A stretch of DNA of 64,000 nucleotides from Actinomycetales bacterium Actino_02 (lineage in GTDB: Bacteria; Actinomycetota; Actinomycetes; Propionibacteriales; Propionibacteriaceae). A model generated the notes under the pieces. The model saw only the letters and a program-made list of their open reading frames with translations. It had not been told where the DNA came from and ran no database searches. The stretch lies in NCBI GenBank assembly GCA_001603275.1, contig LUYM01000020.1:62001-126000 (forward strand), read 5' to 3'. The translations under genes were made by a program, and so were the position numbers. Positions within the stretch are counted from its first letter, which is position 1. Each line of letters starts with the position of its first letter. Below, piece by piece: positions 9,265-47,236 of this stretch.

Positions 9265-10368
9265 GTGGCCGTGCTTTCCTCAACCGCATTCAGTCCCGAA
9301 CGACCCGCGCCCGGCTACCAGGACCAGACCTCATTCCCTGTTCTGGCGAGGGCCTTCATCGAAGTGTCCGACCAAGCGAAGAGCCAAGGCCTGCTCGGCC
9401 GGGCCCGCTGGTTCTACCTTCTTGTCGGCGGAGCGGTCGGAGCCGGCCTCCTGGGATCCTTGACCGGTCTGGTGTTGCTGGGCGATAGCTGGTGGCAGCT
9501 GCTGATCGCCGCCGCCCTGGGAGTCGTGCTGACCCAGGTCGCCTTCCTTGCTCACGAGGCCGCGCACCGTCAGATTCTGATGACTGGTCCGGGCAACGAC
9601 CGTCTGGCCCGGCTGCTGGCCGCAGGAGTGGTCGGGATCAGCTACTCCTGGTGGGACTCCAAACACTCCCGGCATCACGCCAACCCGAACCGGGTGGGAC
9701 GCGATCCCGACATCGAGGCTGACACCATCTCGTTCCTCGACGAAGAGGCGGCCACCACCACAGGCTTTCGTCGGCTGCTGGTCCGCCGACAGGGCTGGCT
9801 GTTCTTCCCGCTGCTCACCCTTGAGGGGCTCAACCTGCACTATCAGGGACTCAAGCACCTGATGCAACGCGGTGAAGTGCGCGGGCGATGGCTGGAACTG
9901 GGTCTGATCGCCGGGCGCTTCGCGATTCTGTTGGGGCTGGTGTTTTGGCTGCTGCCGCTCGGGATCGCCTTCGCGTTCCTGGGCGTCCAACTGGCGGTGT
10001 TCGGCGTCTACATGGGCGCCTCGTTCGCACCCAATCACAAGGGGATGCCGGTGATCGACCGAGCCGCGAAACTCGACTTCTTCACCAAACAGGTGCGCAC
10101 CTCGCGCAACATCGCCGGCGGCTGGTGGGCCACCTGGCTGATGGGCGGCCTGAACTACCAGATCGAGCATCACCTGTTCCCGAACATGCCCCGACCGCAT
10201 CTGGCGCGCGCCCGGGTGATCGTCAAGGCCCAATGCGAGCGGCTCGACGTTCCCTACACCGAGACCAGCCTGTGGCGCTCGTATGCGATCGTCATCGGCT
10301 ATCTGAACCGGGTCGGGCTCGCTGCACGAGACCCGTTCGAGTGCCCGATGCACTCCTTGCGCCGCTAG
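9265..10368 (+). CDS. Membrane fatty-acid desaturase (acyl-lipid/acyl-CoA type)
   Basis: A 367-residue integral membrane di-iron enzyme with three histidine boxes: HEAAH (97-101), HSRHH (134-138) and QIEHH (299-303, followed by LFPNMPRPHL). Hydrophobic pairs lie around 51-95 and 190-255. The QIEHH box is typical of front-end-type acyl-lipid desaturases, also found in actinobacterial homologues. It introduces a double bond into fatty acyl chains using O2 and reduced ferredoxin or cytochrome, adjusting membrane fluidity. No fused cytochrome b5 domain is present. GTG at 9265 is used; a second GTG at 9271 is possible. Confidence 0.9.
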   Translation: MAVLSSTAFSPERPAPGYQDQTSFPVLARAFIEVSDQAKSQGLLGRARWFYLLVGGAVGAGLLGSLTGLVLLGDSWWQLLIAAALGVVLTQVAFLAHEAAHRQILMTGPGNDRLARLLAAGVVGISYSWWDSKHSRHHANPNRVGRDPDIEADTISFLDEEAATTTGFRRLLVRRQGWLFFPLLTLEGLNLHYQGLKHLMQRGEVRGRWLELGLIAGRFAILLGLVFWLLPLGIAFAFLGVQLAVFGVYMGASFAPNHKGMPVIDRAAKLDFFTKQVRTSRNIAGGWWATWLMGGLNYQIEHHLFPNMPRPHLARARVIVKAQCERLDVPYTETSLWRSYAIVIGYLNRVGLAARDPFECPMHSLRR

Positions 10369-38488: not shown

Positions 38489-39205
38489 TCAGTCGGTGCT
38501 GCCGTAGACCGAGATGGAGTCCACTTGGAAGAGGGGCACCGTGGTGTTGCCGCCGTTCTGGGTGTCGTAGGAGTAGGAGCCCAGGACAGTGACCTTGGCC
38601 TTGAAGCAGTCGCCTTCGACCAGCTTCTTGAGCGTGCCTTCCTCACCGTTAAGCATTGAGTTCTGGTCGTAGTCGACGTAGCCGTAGGAGATCCGCAGCT
38701 TCTTCGGCCCGGTGTCGGCTCGGAAGGTGTCGGTCCCGGTGGCCGCGTCGAACTGGGTGATCTCGCCGTAGATCACGTAGGTGTCGCCGATGTAGGCGTC
38801 CGGGTCCTTGGCAATCAGCTTGAAGTTGCGCGACGACAGCTCCTTGTAGCTCTTCTTCGACGGTTGCTGGGTCGCGCTCGCGGTCGGGGACTCGGACGCA
38901 GATTCACTGGGCTCGGCGGACGGTTCGTCGCTCGGCTCGCTGGGTGCCTCGTAGGTGGCGGTCTCGGTGGCCGTGACTGTCACCGTCGGTGCCGCTCCGG
39001 CGACATCGGACTTTCCGCCCGCGCCGGCCGCCCCGCCGACGGCCAGCCCGATGACTAGGGCGGCCACACCGATCACTGGCTTGGAGGTGAGCAGTCGACG
39101 AGGCGAGTTGGGGGATGGTGCATCGAAGCGGGGAGCTCCCGGTGTGGGCTGGGTGGGCTGGTATCCGTCCGGCGGCTGCGGGACGGACGGGTCTGAGTGG
39201 GTCAT
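38489..39205 (-). CDS. Membrane-anchored protein with OB-like extracytoplasmic domain
   Basis: 238 residues from the ATG at 39205 (AGGA upstream). Pro-rich cytoplasmic head (~1-35), one membrane helix (KPVIGVAALVIGLAVGGAAG, ~42-61), a Ser/Pro/Glu linker (~85-120) and a C-terminal ~115-residue domain with IAKDPDAYIGDTYVIYGEITQFD, reminiscent of OB-fold strands. Similar anchored proteins are common in actinobacteria and unnamed. Divergent from the RM operon; the palindrome at 39284-39303 may act on its promoter as well. Confidence 0.75.
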   Translation of the reverse strand: MTHSDPSVPQPPDGYQPTQPTPGAPRFDAPSPNSPRRLLTSKPVIGVAALVIGLAVGGAAGAGGKSDVAGAAPTVTVTATETATYEAPSEPSDEPSAEPSESASESPTASATQQPSKKSYKELSSRNFKLIAKDPDAYIGDTYVIYGEITQFDAATGTDTFRADTGPKKLRISYGYVDYDQNSMLNGEEGTLKKLVEGDCFKAKVTVLGSYSYDTQNGGNTTVPLFQVDSISVYGSTD

Positions 39206-39283: not shown

Positions 39284-39303
39284 CTGATAATGGGGGTTAT
39301 CAG
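39284..39303. promoter_or_regulatory. 20-bp palindromic operator candidate at the type I RM promoter
   Basis: CTGATAA-TGGGGG-TTATCAG, perfect 7-bp arms. Each arm contains a -10-like TGATAA(T/C), reading into the RM operon on one strand and into 38489-39205 on the other. It lies 57 bp before the HTH-containing first gene, whose product may bind it and control the operon, like a controller protein in other RM systems. Confidence 0.5.
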
Positions 39304-39360: not shown

Positions 39361-41269
39361 ATGCCCGAGCTGATGACGATGCGCGACATCGCCGGCTTGG
39401 CGCGCGTGCAGCGTCCGGTGGTGACCACCTGGCGCAAGCGGTCGCGAGGCAGCGCCCATCCCTTCCCGGGTGCTCGCGAGCAGCGCAACGGGCAGGAGCT
39501 GTTTCTGCGCGACGACATCGTCGAATGGCTCGAGGTGACTCAGCGAGGCAACAGCACCGATGTGCGCGCAGATGCTGCGGCCTTCTCGCTGCTCTCCGAT
39601 GGCAGCGCTCGGGCTGCCGAAGCGCTCAGCGCACTCCTCACCCTGCGCCACCTGATCGATGAGCCGCTGGCCGGGTTGAGCCCGGACGACCTGCTGGATC
39701 TGGCTGATGAGCGCGATCCCGACGACCGCTACCTTCTCCGAGAGCTCCCGCGCCCTGGAAGTGTGGGCGGACTGGCCCGGACCGCGGACGATCTGGTTGA
39801 CGCGGCCTGGGATGCCACCCAGGCTCACCGACGACTGGTGGACTCGCGTCTGCGGGCACCAGGCAGTGCTCTGGCTCAGACCGCGCTAAGCGACCCCGGA
39901 CGTCGCCTGCTCTTGGGGTTGGTCGGGCCGCTGGCCAGGGAACTCGGCGAGCCCGCCGTGATGGATGCCACCGGCTGCGCTGTGGACGTCCTCGCTGAGT
40001 TGGCCGCAAGCTTGGAGCTTGCGGCCGCGCTGATCGACGGAGACTCGCCAACTCACCGGCTCGTTCGTCGTCAGCTGCTGCTCGCTGACCGCCCATTCCG
40101 GGTCATCGAGCGGGACGGCGGCAGCTGGTCGATGGACGGCCCCGTGGTTCACATGCTCGTCCTGCCCAGCGCTGCTTCTCCCGGCGCGGACGCGCTCGCA
40201 CAGCTAGATCTGATCGAGGAGGTTGCGCTCCAGCTCGACGACCAGCAGGTCGCGCTCTGCCTGGCACCGTCGGCGACGTTGGCCGACCCACTGACCGGGC
40301 CGGCCTTGGCCCGCCGCGACCAACTGCTCCGGGGCGGCTATGTTCGCGCGGTGGTGCGGCTTCCGGCCGGGCTGCGTCCGGCCTTCCCCCGAGAGCATTC
40401 GGCACTGTGGCTGCTGGGTGCGTCCGAATCGACGGGCCCGGCCGAGCGGCGCACCCTGGTCGCGGATCTGGGGCACCTCACGCTCGCGGGCTGCGACGGT
40501 CTGGCTGATGACCTGCTCGCTGCCGGGCAAGGTGTCGACGGAGCCCGCCGGCGTGCATGGGTTCACCTGCACCCGGTACTCACCCGCGACCTGATCTCGG
40601 CAAGTGGCACGCTGACCCCAGCGCGCCCGACGCGAGCACAGGCGCGTCCGCGTAATGGTGCCGACTGGGTGGTGGATTTGCGTGCCGCTGACCGCGAAGG
40701 TTGGCTGGCCGACTATCGACTCGATGTCGCGGCTGGCTCTCCCGAGCTGATCACGGTTGGGCAGGCGCAGGAGCGCGGCTGGCTACGAGTGATCCCGGGG
40801 CGCAGGCTGCAACTTGGCGGGCTACCCGGCGGCAGCGTGCCCGTGGTCGACTCGACTACCCAGCCGTCGCGAACGGTCGATCGCCTGGCCCTGCTGGCAC
40901 GCTCTGAGGTCGAGTTCACCGAGCCTGGCGACATCATCTTCGACGTCCGATCCACCCCTCGCGCACGCCTCGACGAGGAGGGTGGCACCCTGGTGCTGTC
41001 TCCGGCGCGCGTGCTCCGAGCGCGCGACAGCGCGCCCCTGGTGGCTCGGGCGATCGTGGCCCGGATCAACGCCACCGGCGAGGGCCTGTGGCGCAACTGG
41101 ACGATCTCAGTGATCCCCGAACCCGACCGCAGCCCCCTCGGCGAGGCACTGGCCGAACTGGCCGCCGAACGGGCCAGGTTGGTCGCAGAACTCGCCGCGC
41201 TGGACGCCCTCAGCACCGACCTCACTACAGCTGTCGAGTCCCGGCAGCTCAGCATTACGAAGGAGAACC

Positions 41270-41289
<20 letters not shown>
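39361..41289 (+). CDS. HTH - degenerate N6-methyltransferase - HsdS-like fusion, first gene of the type I RM operon
   Basis: 642 residues, not a named family to me. Residues 5-58 are a MerR/AlpA-like helix-turn-helix (MRDIAGLARVQRPVVTTWRKR, then a recognition strand and DDIVEWLE). Residues ~170-355 follow the HsdM Rossmann layout: a motif-I remnant DATGCAVDVLAEL (202-214), then 283-353 aligning with the part of HsdM after NPPF (EEVALQLDDQ...LLRGGYVRAVVRLPAGLRP...ALWLLGA). Where NPPF should be, it reads LVLPSAAS, so catalysis is unlikely. Residues ~462-585 resemble an HsdS target-recognition half (FTEPGDIIFDVRS; RNWTISVIPEP), ending in a coiled coil (~592-620). SD GAGGAGG. It overlaps hsdM by 20 nt. 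Confidence 0.75.
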
Positions 41290-42836
<1,547 letters not shown>

Positions 42837-42844
<8 letters not shown>

Positions 42845-44069
42845 ATGGGTGGATCTGCGCTTTGAGGACCTAGCAGCGCCCGGCAAGAGCTCGATGGCGA
42901 CTGGGCCGTTCGGGTCCGCAGTCTCAGCCCGACACTTCCGTACCGACGGTGTCCCGATGATCAGAGGCTCGAATTTGTCGGCCGATGTGGGTGTGAGGCT
43001 AGTCGAGGATGACATCGTCTTCCTGGGGCGCGAGATCGCCGACAGGTTTCCTCGGAGCATGGTGCGAGAAGGCGATCTAGTATTCACTTGTTGGGGCACT
43101 TTGGGGCAGATTGGCTATCTTGACGGCCATCACCGATATGCGGAGTACATAGTCTCCAACAAGCAGATGAAAATGACCCCTGATCGGTCGCGCGTAGACG
43201 GGCTCTTCCTGTACTACCTCATGAGCCAGCCATCGATGCTCGACGCGGTGACTGGGCAGGCGATAGGCAGCAGCGTGCCGGGGTTCAACCTTGGGCAACT
43301 GAGACTGCTGAAGGTCCGGCTCCCGCCCCTCCCCACCCAACGCGCCATCGCCGAAGTCCTCGGCGCCCTCGACGACAAGATCGCCGCGAACCAGCGGGTT
43401 GAGACGCTGTCCGAGGCTTTGTTGGCAGCTGAGCTCACGGCACTTCAGCGCACCTCCGAAGGACGAGTGGTCGCGGCTAGCGATCTTGTGGAGTTCAATC
43501 CATGGTCTGCTGTGCCAACAAAGCCTGAGCCGGTCTATGTCGACATGCAGAAGCTCCCCACATCGGGTAGTCAGATCCTCACCTGGGGTGCGCGTCCCGC
43601 TCAAGGGGGAGCTCGGTTCGTCAACGGGGACACCCTCTTGGCGCGCATTACCCCGTGCCTTGAGAATCGGAAGGTCGGGTTCGTGGACTTCCTCGATGCC
43701 GGCGAGAGCGCACTTGGGTCGACCGAGTTCGTCGTGATGCGCGCTAGACCTGGCTTTGCGCGTCCGCTGAGCTTCTTGCTCGCAATTGACGAGGGCTTCC
43801 GCGTGCATGCCATTCGGCACATGGTCGGAAGCTCGGGTCGTCAGCGGGTGAGCGCCAGTGCTCTTGCGGCATACGAACTGCGCCTCCCTCTGGAGTCGGA
43901 GGCGTTTGCTGCCTTAGGTATGAGATCCGAGGCGATTTTCGCTCTCCTCGCGAAGCGAAGAGACGAGTCTCGTCTCCTCGCCGAACTCCGCGACACGTTG
44001 CTTCCTCACCTGATGAGCGGTCGCCTGACCGTCCGCGAAGCTGAGAAGCAGGTTGAGGAGGTGTTGTGA
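42837..44069 (+). CDS. hsdS: Type I restriction-modification specificity subunit
   Basis: 410 residues with two target-recognition domains (~1-160 and ~210-350). Each is followed by a conserved helix: RLPPLPTQRAIAEVLGALDDKIAANQRV (~170-197), then a C-terminal spacer helix ending LLAELRDTLLPHLMSGRLTV. These set the two half-sites and their spacing. The recognition domains are visibly less GC-rich than the flanking genes, as expected for horizontally exchanged specificity modules. Start at ATG 42837 within the hsdM end. The recognised DNA site cannot be read from sequence. Confidence 0.94.
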
Positions 44070-47000
44070 TGGCACTGATCAGTGAAGCCGAATGGGAGTC
44101 CACCGCGCTCGAGGTGCTCGCCGAGCAGGGCTGGGTTGCCACCACCGGTGCCGAGATCGCCGGTGAGCGCATCTCGGCGTCCGACATCTTCTTGCACGAG
44201 CGGTTCCGAGAGGCGCTGGTGCGGCTGAACCCGTCGGTGCCCGAGGTCTACCTGCGGCAGGCGGCGACCGAGATTCTCACCCCGTCCAGTCAGGACGCGA
44301 TCACCGAGAATCGGCGACTCCATGAGCTGATGGTGCACGGGTATCGCGGCGTCACCTATCTCGACAACGACAGCGTGGAACAGAACCCGACGATCCAGCT
44401 GATCGGGCGTGATCCCGGCGACAACGACTGGCTGGCCGTGCGGCAGTTGACCATCAGCAGTACCGAGCACCACCGCCGCTTCGACGTGGTCTGCTACGTC
44501 AATGGCCTGCCGGTGATCATCTGCGAGCTGAAGCAAGCCGGACTCGCCACCGCCGATCTGGCCGCCGCGCACAGCCAGTTGGGCACCTACCTGTCGGAGT
44601 TCCCGCTCGCCTTCCGCGGGTGTGTGCTGAGCGTGATCTCCGACGGGGTCACCGCCGGCTACGGCACGCCGTTTACCCCGCTGCACCACTACTCGTCCTG
44701 GAATGTCGATGACGATGGCGTCCCGCTGCCGGCGGGGGAGTCCATCGCCGACACCGACTACGACAACGCGCTCGAGGTCACCTTCTATGGGCTGGGCGAC
44801 CAAGTGCGCTTCCTCGACCTGCTGCGGCACTTCACCGCCTTCGATGCGGGCGAGTTCGGCTTGGCCAAGCGGATCGCCAAGCCGCACCAGTACTTTGCGG
44901 TGAACAAGGCGCTCGGCCGCACAGTGACCGCGGTGAAGTCCGACGGGCGTGCTGGCGTCGTCTGGCATACCCAGGGCTCGGGCAAGTCGATGGAGATGGA
45001 ACTGTTCGCCAACCTGGTGATGCGCTCCACGCATCTGCTGAACCCGACGATCGTGGTGATCACCGATCGCCGTGAACTGGACGGCCAGCTGTACCAGGGC
45101 TTCGCCGCCTCGACTCTGCTGCCGGAGAAGCCGATCCAGATCACCACCCGCTCCCAGCTGCGTACTGAGCTCACCCAGCGGTCGTCCGGCGGGATCCTGT
45201 TCACTACCTTGCAGAAGTTCAATCGGACGCTGGAAGAGCGCCAGTCGGGTGCTGATCACCCACTGCTCAGCGAGCGGCGCAACATCGTGGTCATTGTCGA
45301 CGAAGCGCATCGCTCCCACTACGACGACCTGGACGGCTACGCCCGCTTCCTGCGCGACGCCCTGCCGCACGCCACCTTGATCGCCTTCACCGGCACCCCG
45401 GTGAGCACTGTCGATCACAACACCCGCGAGGTGTTCGGCGACTACATCGACATCTACGACCTGACCAGGGCGGTCAACGACGGCGCCACCGTGTCGGTCT
45501 TCGTCGAGCCCCGGCTGGTGAAGGTGGCCTTCGCCGACGATGTCACCCCCGAAGACCTCGACCGCGCCGCCGATGAGGCGACCGTCGGGCTGGACGAGAT
45601 CGAGCGTGAGCGGTTGGAGAAGTCGGTGGCCGTGATCAACGCCGTCTACGGGGCGCCGGCCCGGCTGGCGACGCTCGCCGCCGACATCGTCGCTCACTGG
45701 GAGACCCGCCGCGAGCGGATGCGTCCGCTGATCGATGGGCCGGGCAAGGCGATGATCGTCTGCGCCACTCGTCAGATCTGCGCCGACCTGTACGCCCAGC
45801 TGGTTGAGCTGCGACCCGAGTGGCATTCCGACGCGCTCGAGGGAGGCGTTCTGAAGGTGGTCTACTCCGGCAGTGCGTCGGACAGCGGGGAGATCGCCAA
45901 GCACGTCCGCCGCGACTCGGAGAACCAGGTCATCAAGAAGCGGCTCAAGGACCCCGAAGACTCGCTGGAGCTGGTGATCGTCAAGGACATGATGCTCACC
46001 GGTTACGACTCGCCGCCGCTGCACACCTTGTACCTGGATCGTCCGATGAAGGGCGCGCTGCTGATGCAGACCCTCGCCCGGGTGAACCGCACCTTCCGTG
46101 GCAAGGACTCCGGCCTGCTGGTGGGCTACGCGCCGCTGGTGGAGAGCCTGAGTGCGGCACTGGCCGAGTACAGCCCGTCCGATCAGCAGGAGCGGCCGAT
46201 CGGGCGGACGGCCGATGAGGCTGTCGAGCTGGCCCGAACCCTGCTCGACCAGCTGCGTGCGCTCGTGGCCGGCTACGACTGGAGGGCGCAGTTGGGTGGT
46301 CCGAAGGGCTGGCTGAAGGCCGCCACCGGCCTCACCGCCTGGCTGCGGAGTCCACAGAACCCGGGCAATCAGGTCGCCGAGGGAGAGCTCGGGCTTGCCG
46401 GACGGTTCCGGCAACTGTCCGGGCAGCTCGGCCGGGCCTGGGCTCTCGCGTCGGGCTACACGAATCTGTCGGATGTGCGTGACGAGGTGCGCTTTTACGA
46501 AGAGGTGCGGGTGTGGATGGCCAAGTTCGACGCCGCCGAGCGCGTTGCCCGGGGCGAGCCTGTCCCCGAGGAAGTGGCGCGCCTGCTGCGTCAGCTGGCT
46601 TACCAGGCGACCGATTCCGACGAAGTCATCGACATCTATGCCGCCGCCGAGATCACCCCGCCCGACTTCAACGACCTGACGCCAGCAGCCCTGGCTCGGG
46701 CGCAGCAGTCGAGTAACCCCCATCTGGCGATTGAGGCCCTCCGCGATGCGATCCTGGCCGAGGCTGCGCGAGCCACCGGCGCGAGCCTGGTGCGTCAGCG
46801 GGCCTTCAGTGAGCGGCTCTCCGACGTGATGAACCGCTACACCAACAGCCAGCTGAGCGCCGCCGAAGTGCTGATCGAGTTGTTCGAGATGGCCAAAGAC
46901 CTTGCCGCAGAGGCGAAGCGCGGCGAACAGTTCGACCCGCCCTTGGCGTCGGATGAGTTGGCCACTTACGACGCGATCGCCGACAACGCCTCGGCACTCG

Positions 47001-47236
47001 ACGTGCTTGGCCAGGACGTGCTCGCCGACATCGCGCGCCAGTTGGTGGCGATGATGCGGGCCGACGTGAAGACCGACTGGACCGTCCGCGACGACGTCCG
47101 TGCGTCGCTGCGGGCCAAGATCAGGCGCCTGCTGCGAAAGTACAAGTATCCGCCGGACCACGCTGAGGGTGCCGTCAAGCAGGTGATCGAACAGATGGAA
47201 CTGCTCGCCCCGGGGGTAGGGGCAGGCATTGGCTGA
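44069..47236 (+). CDS. hsdR: Type I restriction endonuclease/translocase subunit
   Basis: 1055 residues. The N-terminal nuclease has a PD-(D/E)xK core (Asp139 in RRFDVV, Glu153-x-Lys155 in CELKQAG). The SF2 translocase has Walker A TQGSGKS (301-307), DEAH (411-414), motif III FTGTPV, and later motifs MLTGYDSPPLHTLYLDRPMKG and QTLARVNRTF. The helical C-terminus (~800-1055) docks to M2S. It pulls in unmodified DNA and cuts at a distance. AGGAGG precedes the ATG at 44069, which shares a base with the hsdS stop. Confidence 0.96.
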   Translation: MALISEAEWESTALEVLAEQGWVATTGAEIAGERISASDIFLHERFREALVRLNPSVPEVYLRQAATEILTPSSQDAITENRRLHELMVHGYRGVTYLDNDSVEQNPTIQLIGRDPGDNDWLAVRQLTISSTEHHRRFDVVCYVNGLPVIICELKQAGLATADLAAAHSQLGTYLSEFPLAFRGCVLSVISDGVTAGYGTPFTPLHHYSSWNVDDDGVPLPAGESIADTDYDNALEVTFYGLGDQVRFLDLLRHFTAFDAGEFGLAKRIAKPHQYFAVNKALGRTVTAVKSDGRAGVVWHTQGSGKSMEMELFANLVMRSTHLLNPTIVVITDRRELDGQLYQGFAASTLLPEKPIQITTRSQLRTELTQRSSGGILFTTLQKFNRTLEERQSGADHPLLSERRNIVVIVDEAHRSHYDDLDGYARFLRDALPHATLIAFTGTPVSTVDHNTREVFGDYIDIYDLTRAVNDGATVSVFVEPRLVKVAFADDVTPEDLDRAADEATVGLDEIERERLEKSVAVINAVYGAPARLATLAADIVAHWETRRERMRPLIDGPGKAMIVCATRQICADLYAQLVELRPEWHSDALEGGVLKVVYSGSASDSGEIAKHVRRDSENQVIKKRLKDPEDSLELVIVKDMMLTGYDSPPLHTLYLDRPMKGALLMQTLARVNRTFRGKDSGLLVGYAPLVESLSAALAEYSPSDQQERPIGRTADEAVELARTLLDQLRALVAGYDWRAQLGGPKGWLKAATGLTAWLRSPQNPGNQVAEGELGLAGRFRQLSGQLGRAWALASGYTNLSDVRDEVRFYEEVRVWMAKFDAAERVARGEPVPEEVARLLRQLAYQATDSDEVIDIYAAAEITPPDFNDLTPAALARAQQSSNPHLAIEALRDAILAEAARATGASLVRQRAFSERLSDVMNRYTNSQLSAAEVLIELFEMAKDLAAEAKRGEQFDPPLASDELATYDAIADNASALDVLGQDVLADIARQLVAMMRADVKTDWTVRDDVRASLRAKIRRLLRKYKYPPDHAEGAVKQVIEQMELLAPGVGAGIG

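Follow-up and report, generated by a model that had tools for sequence, protein, structure and literature searches.

X, the first gene of a type I restriction-modification (RM) operon, very probably encodes a dedicated transcription factor of that operon, built from a dead methyltransferase. The gene lies in a stretch of 64,000 nucleotides of actinobacterial DNA, hereafter the window. The support for this role is computational and comprises the fold and the decay of its motifs, the conservation and near-uniqueness of a candidate operator, its covariation with the helix-turn-helix (HTH), the placement of -10-like hexamers in most relatives, and the joint retention or loss of X with HsdR. A sequence-only reading of the window had offered three roles for the protein, i.e., a pseudo-M-S subunit adding a second specificity, a DNA-sensing scaffold, and a built-in controller. 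The last is the option that the evidence favors, on account of the dedicated palindrome, the HTH/palindrome covariation, and the divergent -10-like hexamers at matching distances.

Organization of the operon

X starts at an ATG preceded by a Shine-Dalgarno-like GAGGAGG and overlaps hsdM, which starts at 41270, by exactly 20 nt (Table 1). The identity of hsdM, hsdS, and hsdR was confirmed with Pfam and NCBIfam, and this, together with the ORF coordinates, upholds the first description of X as the head of a type I RM operon with a 20-nt overlap with hsdM. A divergent gene, Y, had no Pfam match; we infer its start at the ATG at 39205, the called ORF being longer and beginning at a TTG.

Table 1. 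Features of the X operon and its divergent neighbor in the window.
Feature	Position	Strand	Description or basis
Divergent gene Y	38489..39205	-	Proline-rich N-terminus, one hydrophobic segment, C-terminal domain without assigned function
Operator CTGATAATGGGGGTTATCAG	39284..39303	.	Perfect 7-bp inverted repeat, 6-bp spacer; predicted
Operon gene X	39361..41289	+	Winged HTH / dead N6-MTase-like / half-HsdS-like, 642 aa
X residues 4-62, winged helix-turn-helix	39370..39546	+	Conservation, predicted secondary structure, operator covariation
X residues 66-196, helical domain	39556..39948	+	AlphaFold model
X residues 198-410, degenerate N6-methyltransferase-like domain	39952..40590	+	Alignment, AlphaFold, Foldseek
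X residues 459-585, TRD-like domain	40735..41115	+	HsdS profile (C-terminal part); Foldseek BpuSI, M.BseCI, CamA folds
X residues 587-632, long C-terminal helix, like HsdS conserved coiled coil	41119..41256	+	Model, HsdS profile
hsdM	41270..42844	+	PF02384 plus HsdM_N
hsdS	42804..44069	+	Methylase_S
hsdR	44066..47236	+	HSDR_N, SWI2/SNF2, T1RH-like_C

Fold, motifs, and origin of X

The X ORF has about 24 homologues in the family, nearly all with intact frames, and dN/dS was 0.24-0.35 in seven pairs, so X is not a chance ORF. The protein matched no model of Pfam (0 families at E ≤ 10), NCBIfam, or PADLOC; in Pfam, N6_Mtase (PF02384) was absent from 21 X relatives too, and PF01420 had no match in X. 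The MADS models (mad1/mad2) did not match X and gave single weak matches to relatives. PADLOC PDC-M06B, a model of 174 positions, was considered as a relative and rejected, since X did not match it and only 2 of the 21 relatives did so, weakly; most of its matches elsewhere span only part of the model. Searching the X sequence alone against solved structures returned nothing useful.

The AlphaFold model of X has a mean pLDDT of 85.6, and the PDB entries that Foldseek ranks highest are M subunits of type I systems and M-S fusions (E values: 7eew, 7.6e-17; BpuSI 3s1s, 9.4e-14; 2okc, 1.7e-10). In sequence comparison, the A1 profile reached 2okc with an E of only 0.0093, and the X profile gave a non-significant E of 0.11 against the HsdM of the same operon type. 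Residues 519-642 matched the HsdS profile (probability 85%, E 5.8e-6) as one half-HsdS-like region only, and the two-TRD layout of HsdS, with its separating conserved helices, was not found in X. The HsdM/HsdS architecture first read from the sequence is supported by the AlphaFold model, the Foldseek matches to M subunits, and the HsdS-profile match of the C-terminus; a structure prediction devoid of a methyltransferase or TRD fold had been named as evidence against it, and such a fold is present in the X family.

In an alignment of X with 20 relatives, the HTH is strongly conserved (V-x-R-P-V-V-S-x-W-R; V16-Q-R-P-V-V-T-T-W-R25 in the recognition-helix region of X). This conservation and the secondary structure of the model agree with the N-terminal DNA-binding HTH that had been proposed, binding being predicted. 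The DPxxGxG motif I is degenerate. The earlier statement that X lacks the motif I glycines holds for the GxG glycine, which is gone in most members, and does not hold for D-x-x-G, which most members keep and which persists in X as DATGCA (from residue 202). The reported loss of motif IV NPPF is seen throughout, since NPPF/Y is missing from every aligned member and X has LPSAA in its place (about residues 266-271). An L-P-x-G-L block of the HsdM kind is conserved, as is a PGDVVF...VD..GG...P.R.LR block. In pairwise comparisons of X, mean identity is 49% in the HTH, 34% in the TRD-like part, and 20-30% in the remaining parts.

An hhalign alignment of 489 columns (probability 99.4%, E 2.9e-21) also links X to Streptomyces-like HTH-N6_Mtase-TRD proteins. 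This match to intact proteins, together with the lost motifs, indicates that X is a methyltransferase of HTH-N6_Mtase-TRD architecture whose catalytic motifs have been lost. Homologues with an intact NPPY in an unrelated context, likewise named beforehand as contrary evidence, were not found in the X family; the Streptomyces-like relatives with [NCD]PP[FYA] form a separate group.

Distribution and gene neighborhood

X is present in 27 of the 199 genomes of the window's family, covering 10 of 29 genera. A scan of named genomes gave 163 X loci, and the 80 that were kept had been recruited by the HTH pattern, so that HTH conservation is biased in that set. All but one of these (79/80) belong to records with actinobacterial titles, including Arthrobacter, Cryobacterium, Rhodococcus, Cellulomonas, and Mycobacterium gordonae, and 76 of the 80 have hsdM immediately 3′ of X; in family loci with enough contig, HsdM likewise lies directly downstream. 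With HsdM as the query, X was found in 24 of the 24 family loci examined at an HsdM identity of at least about 67%, and in none of the six at 52-54%. X forms a conserved family in actinobacteria, and its genes almost always lie immediately upstream of an hsdM from a single clade. Two scans of viral contigs found no X.

Three loci are unusual. An orphan X in a Mumia quercus record (L066:5986-8037) has no hsdM, hsdS, or hsdR in 14 kb and carries CCGATAAGGGCCCTTATCAG upstream. At L103:5791-9178, a deletion appears to have removed hsdM and hsdS, leaving the 5′ half of X fused with a 3′ portion of hsdR. A record titled Sporosarcina beigongshangi (L090; Bacillota by name) contains an actinobacterial X operon, and this genome is probably mislabeled or contaminated.

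A candidate operator upstream of X

At a distance of 57 nt, the start codon of X is preceded by a perfect palindrome, CTGATAA-N6-TTATCAG. The site, CTGATAATGGGGGTTATCAG, is the sole match in the window at ≤2 mismatches (0.12 expected), and in exact form it occurs once in the 3.05-Mb genome. Exact TGATAA-N6-TTATCA precedes X in 70 of 102 loci, the spacer always being N6. In 83 non-redundant loci, chosen by the presence of the core GATAA-N6-TTATC upstream of X, the flanking T and A are conserved as well. Across 281 loci, the palindrome was found at most once per locus and in X loci only.

In whole genomes, the exact site was detected in 21 of 23 X genomes, as a single copy in 20 of them, and in none of seven X-less genomes. 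Genome G880 has two X operons and two exact sites, and in G823 the exact site is at an accessory ATPase gene, X itself having a one-base variant. Family-wide, the exact site occurs in 15 of 27 genomes with X and in 5 of the roughly 171 remaining ones; some of the X genomes that the exact pattern does not pick up have variants, e.g., CGATAA-N6-TTATC. The five X-less genomes have no X, hsdM, or hsdR near the site, which may be due to chance or belong to another factor. At G862:C1:1673951-1674674, in an X-less genome, GATAAGACGGGTTATC occurs three times at intervals of exactly 354 nt, which looks like a tandem repeat. Operator matches in viral contigs (at least 120 stretches) are uninformative, because a very large collection whose contigs are often AT-rich should contain the palindrome by chance.

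In one locus (L256:12203-12222) the palindrome recurs downstream of hsdR, ahead of a gene for an SMC/AAA-like ATPase. Relatives of this ATPase are encoded at the divergent position in L248, L250, and L257. The recurrence suggests that X controls accessory genes too.

Operator variants and the HTH

In loci recruited through the whole X or HsdM, HTH residue 17 is S or G only with non-GATAA operators, and in the GATAA loci on the tree it is always Q, R, K, or E. The non-GATAA palindromes are GTTAA in L247 and L249, GTTTA in L242, and GAAAA-like in L226 and L240. The X tree has four changes each of residue 17 and of the operator, with three supported independent pairs, all concordant (sign test p 0.25). 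The operator and the recognition helix of the HTH thus appear to change together, the independent changes being too few for significance.

Promoter geometry and divergent genes

In 75 of the 83 loci, a TANNNT hexamer begins 48-51 bp from where the operator core starts, against a median of 1 at other positions. The mirror side shows TANNNT on the opposite strand, roughly equally far away, in 44 of the 83 (median 0). No conserved -35 was seen in these loci. In the window itself, neither side of the operator has a perfect TANNNT where one would be expected, and a scan of the promoter for the sigma-70 consensus found none. Because -10-like hexamers flank the operator at matching distances in most relatives, it is probably shared by X and the divergent gene, the window's own promoter being a weak case.

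If the TANNNT hexamers are -10 boxes, the center of the operator would lie at about -53 of two divergent promoters, a placement that we take to be commoner for activators than for repressors. X would then be an activator somewhat sooner than a repressor.

The divergent gene most often encodes a small protein with one hydrophobic segment. Several families occupy this position, one of them in 43 loci and another, which includes the window's Y, in 13. As a neighbor conserved by sequence, Y was rejected, being common only to close relatives.

Retention and loss of X with HsdR

Larger stretches around about 70 loci were examined for X, HsdM, HsdS, and HsdR. In a tree of HsdM, the X-type sequences group into a single supported clade (52 rows), with an X-less sister clade of 15. 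Within the X clade, 36 loci have both an intact X and an intact hsdR, 13 are without both (i.e., absent, fragmentary, or broken, the absence of HsdR being judged in a stretch of up to about 10 kb downstream), none is discordant, and three X loci run into a contig edge. Of the conserved co-occurrence with hsdMSR that had been proposed as a check, that with HsdM and hsdR is seen in these 36 loci, and HsdM also lies downstream of X in most of the named-genome loci. Among the losers, L241 has a broken X and no hsdR in about 10 kb, and L215 retains an X remnant of 62 residues (ORF 9879-10220, minus strand).

There are six supported independent losses of X or HsdR, all of them joint (sign test p 0.031, six events), and most losers of X and hsdR retain hsdM and hsdS. 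Because X and HsdR share one fate, and HsdM, usually with HsdS, stays behind when they go, X appears to be tied to restriction and not to methylation. In the X clade, as judged from gene content, X goes with restriction and is dispensable for keeping the methyltransferase, general operon decay being an alternative cause. In the X-less sister clade, hsdR is intact in 14 of 14 testable loci.

Three restriction-less hsdM/hsdS loci of one genus (L215, L217, and L221; f5 g33) lie beside genes that read by eye as thyX, dapA, rnj, dfrA, or thyA, the subset differing per locus, in a gene order that we take to match the Mycobacterium tuberculosis hsdM (MamC) locus. In five of the restriction-less loci of this genus, HsdM is without residues 57-99, approximately. 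The M. tuberculosis HsdM/HsdS locus has been renamed MamC/MamS (PMC7591249). Restriction-less mycobacterial HsdM/HsdS loci may descend from X-controlled restriction operons that have lost both X and HsdR.

Proposed mechanism and alternatives

We propose that the winged HTH of X binds CTGATAA-N6-TTATCAG, presumably as a dimer, between the divergent X-hsdM-hsdS-hsdR operon and Y, and that this binding would set the expression of the restriction island. The C-terminal N6-MTase-like/half-HsdS-like part would be inherited from an HTH-N6-MTase-TRD ancestor and would now serve as a dimerization or signal-sensing module; no part in setting methylation specificity is ascribed to X. A more specific version is tentative, and we regard it as possible but doubtful: the dead methyltransferase/TRD module would monitor the state of the system, i.e., free HsdM or HsdS, SAM, or unmethylated or foreign DNA, and the HTH would switch on the restriction operon and the divergent, usually membrane-anchored, partner. 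If true, restriction would be expressed only when safe or needed.

It is unlikely that X is instead a structural or targeting pseudo-M-S arm on HsdM/HsdR, needed for DNA cleavage and not for methylation, with an operator that serves autoregulation only or belongs to another factor. Such an arm would fit the M-S-like fold, the overlap with hsdM, the joint retention or loss of X and HsdR, and the pairwise identities of X, which over 24 loci follow those of HsdR best (Spearman rho 0.56, versus 0.50 for HsdM and 0.10 for HsdS). However, the sister HsdM clade has, by gene content, intact hsdR without X in all 14 loci, and the HTH is the most strongly conserved part of X and changes together with the operator, which a purely structural role would not need.

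We consider it very improbable that the palindrome is the site of some unrelated global regulator and that X plays no part in regulation. The matching sites in five X-less genomes could be read in this way, but there is usually one site per genome, at X; the operator and the X HTH co-vary; and the sole relocated site found (L256) adjoins an accessory gene of the same island.

To the proposal that X is a pseudo-M-S subunit lending the methyltransferase a second DNA specificity we give scarcely any weight. The C-terminal TRD-like domain and coiled coil do resemble half an HsdS, but the catalytic motifs are degenerate in all aligned members, variation in X is not tied to that in HsdS (rho 0.10; L226 and L240 share 95% identity in X and 27% in HsdS), and HsdM, usually with HsdS, has repeatedly been retained without X. 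Within X, moreover, the TRD-like part is second only to the HTH in conservation, which also argues against this role. The conserved operator, the HTH/operator covariation, and the joint retention or loss of X and HsdR favor a controller over a second specificity subunit. The conservation of the TRD-like part exceeds what would be expected of an idle remnant and leaves room for a second role of X; the DNA-sensing scaffold may be such an added role.

That X is a decaying relic of an HTH-N6-methyltransferase, as the loss of motifs I and IV and the homology to intact HTH-N6_Mtase proteins might suggest, can practically be dismissed in view of frames intact across many genera, the dN/dS values, and the conserved operator and gene order.

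Comparison with known systems

No published description of X was found in the literature searched, and the transcriptional regulation of type I systems is, according to a 2025 review, surprisingly little understood (PMC12707154). The X operons represent a widespread actinobacterial subclass of type I systems with a probable dedicated regulator and a defined 20-bp candidate operator that genomes with X usually contain just once. X would have a clear origin in the conversion of an enzyme into a regulator, and as a one-site, one-factor system it would be directly testable.

The closest relatives in architecture that we compared, the Streptomyces-like HTH-N6_Mtase-TRD proteins (L145, L146, L148, L153, L159, and L162), share full-length homology and domain order with X but, unlike X, keep DPACG and mostly [NCD]PP[FYA], and the three that were scanned match PF02384. 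No GATAA operator was found within 300 nt upstream of their genes. A palindrome like GTGAACCG-AGTCAACA-CGGTTCAC is common to the upstream regions of the Streptomyces-like HTH-N6_Mtase genes in L148, L149, and L151, and because it is shared, the wider HTH-N6_Mtase family may autoregulate too.

Type I HsdM has the fold of the middle domain of X (7eew, 2okc), whereas X is without motifs I and IV and PF02384 and has an extra HTH; type I HsdS resembles the C-terminus of X, which amounts to only half an HsdS and is without PF01420.

M.SsoII, M.Ecl18kI, and M.EcoRII are C5-cytosine methyltransferases. Like X, these type II enzymes have an N-terminal HTH fused to a methyltransferase (PMC12707154), and in Ecl18kI, and probably in SsoII, RM gene expression is controlled through an HTH site placed between competing promoters (PMC12707154). 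X shares with them the N-terminal HTH and, as predicted, an operator in the RM promoter region. They differ in being active type II enzymes, whereas X has an N6-type fold with its motifs lost, a TRD-like domain, and a place in a type I operon. By analogy, these regulatory methyltransferases would be the closest in mechanism to X. The C proteins of type II systems are dedicated autoregulatory HTH factors linked to the restriction gene, and X would resemble them in this, its operator being predicted; they are, however, small, lambda-cI-like, and without a methyltransferase domain, whereas X is a multidomain protein of 642 aa.

The closest type I precedent would be RptR, a repressor of type I RM islands in Gammaproteobacteria that is encoded by the first ORF and is an autoregulator (PMC12255303). 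X too is the first ORF of its island, but RptR is a small alpha-helical dimer on TAGCTA repeats with no methyltransferase fold, neither of which applies to X. In the E. coli RptR island, DarTG lies between hsdS and hsdR, and likewise in X islands L232 and L236: DarT (PF14487) and a macro-domain protein are found at L236:9119-10852 and in the matching region of L232. Other X islands have Schlafen/AlbA-like genes in this gap or, by eye, AbiE-like or ImmA-like ones. Taken by analogy, X would work like the regulatory type II methyltransferases and RptR and yet belong to neither, being N6-type, catalytically dead, and part of a type I system.
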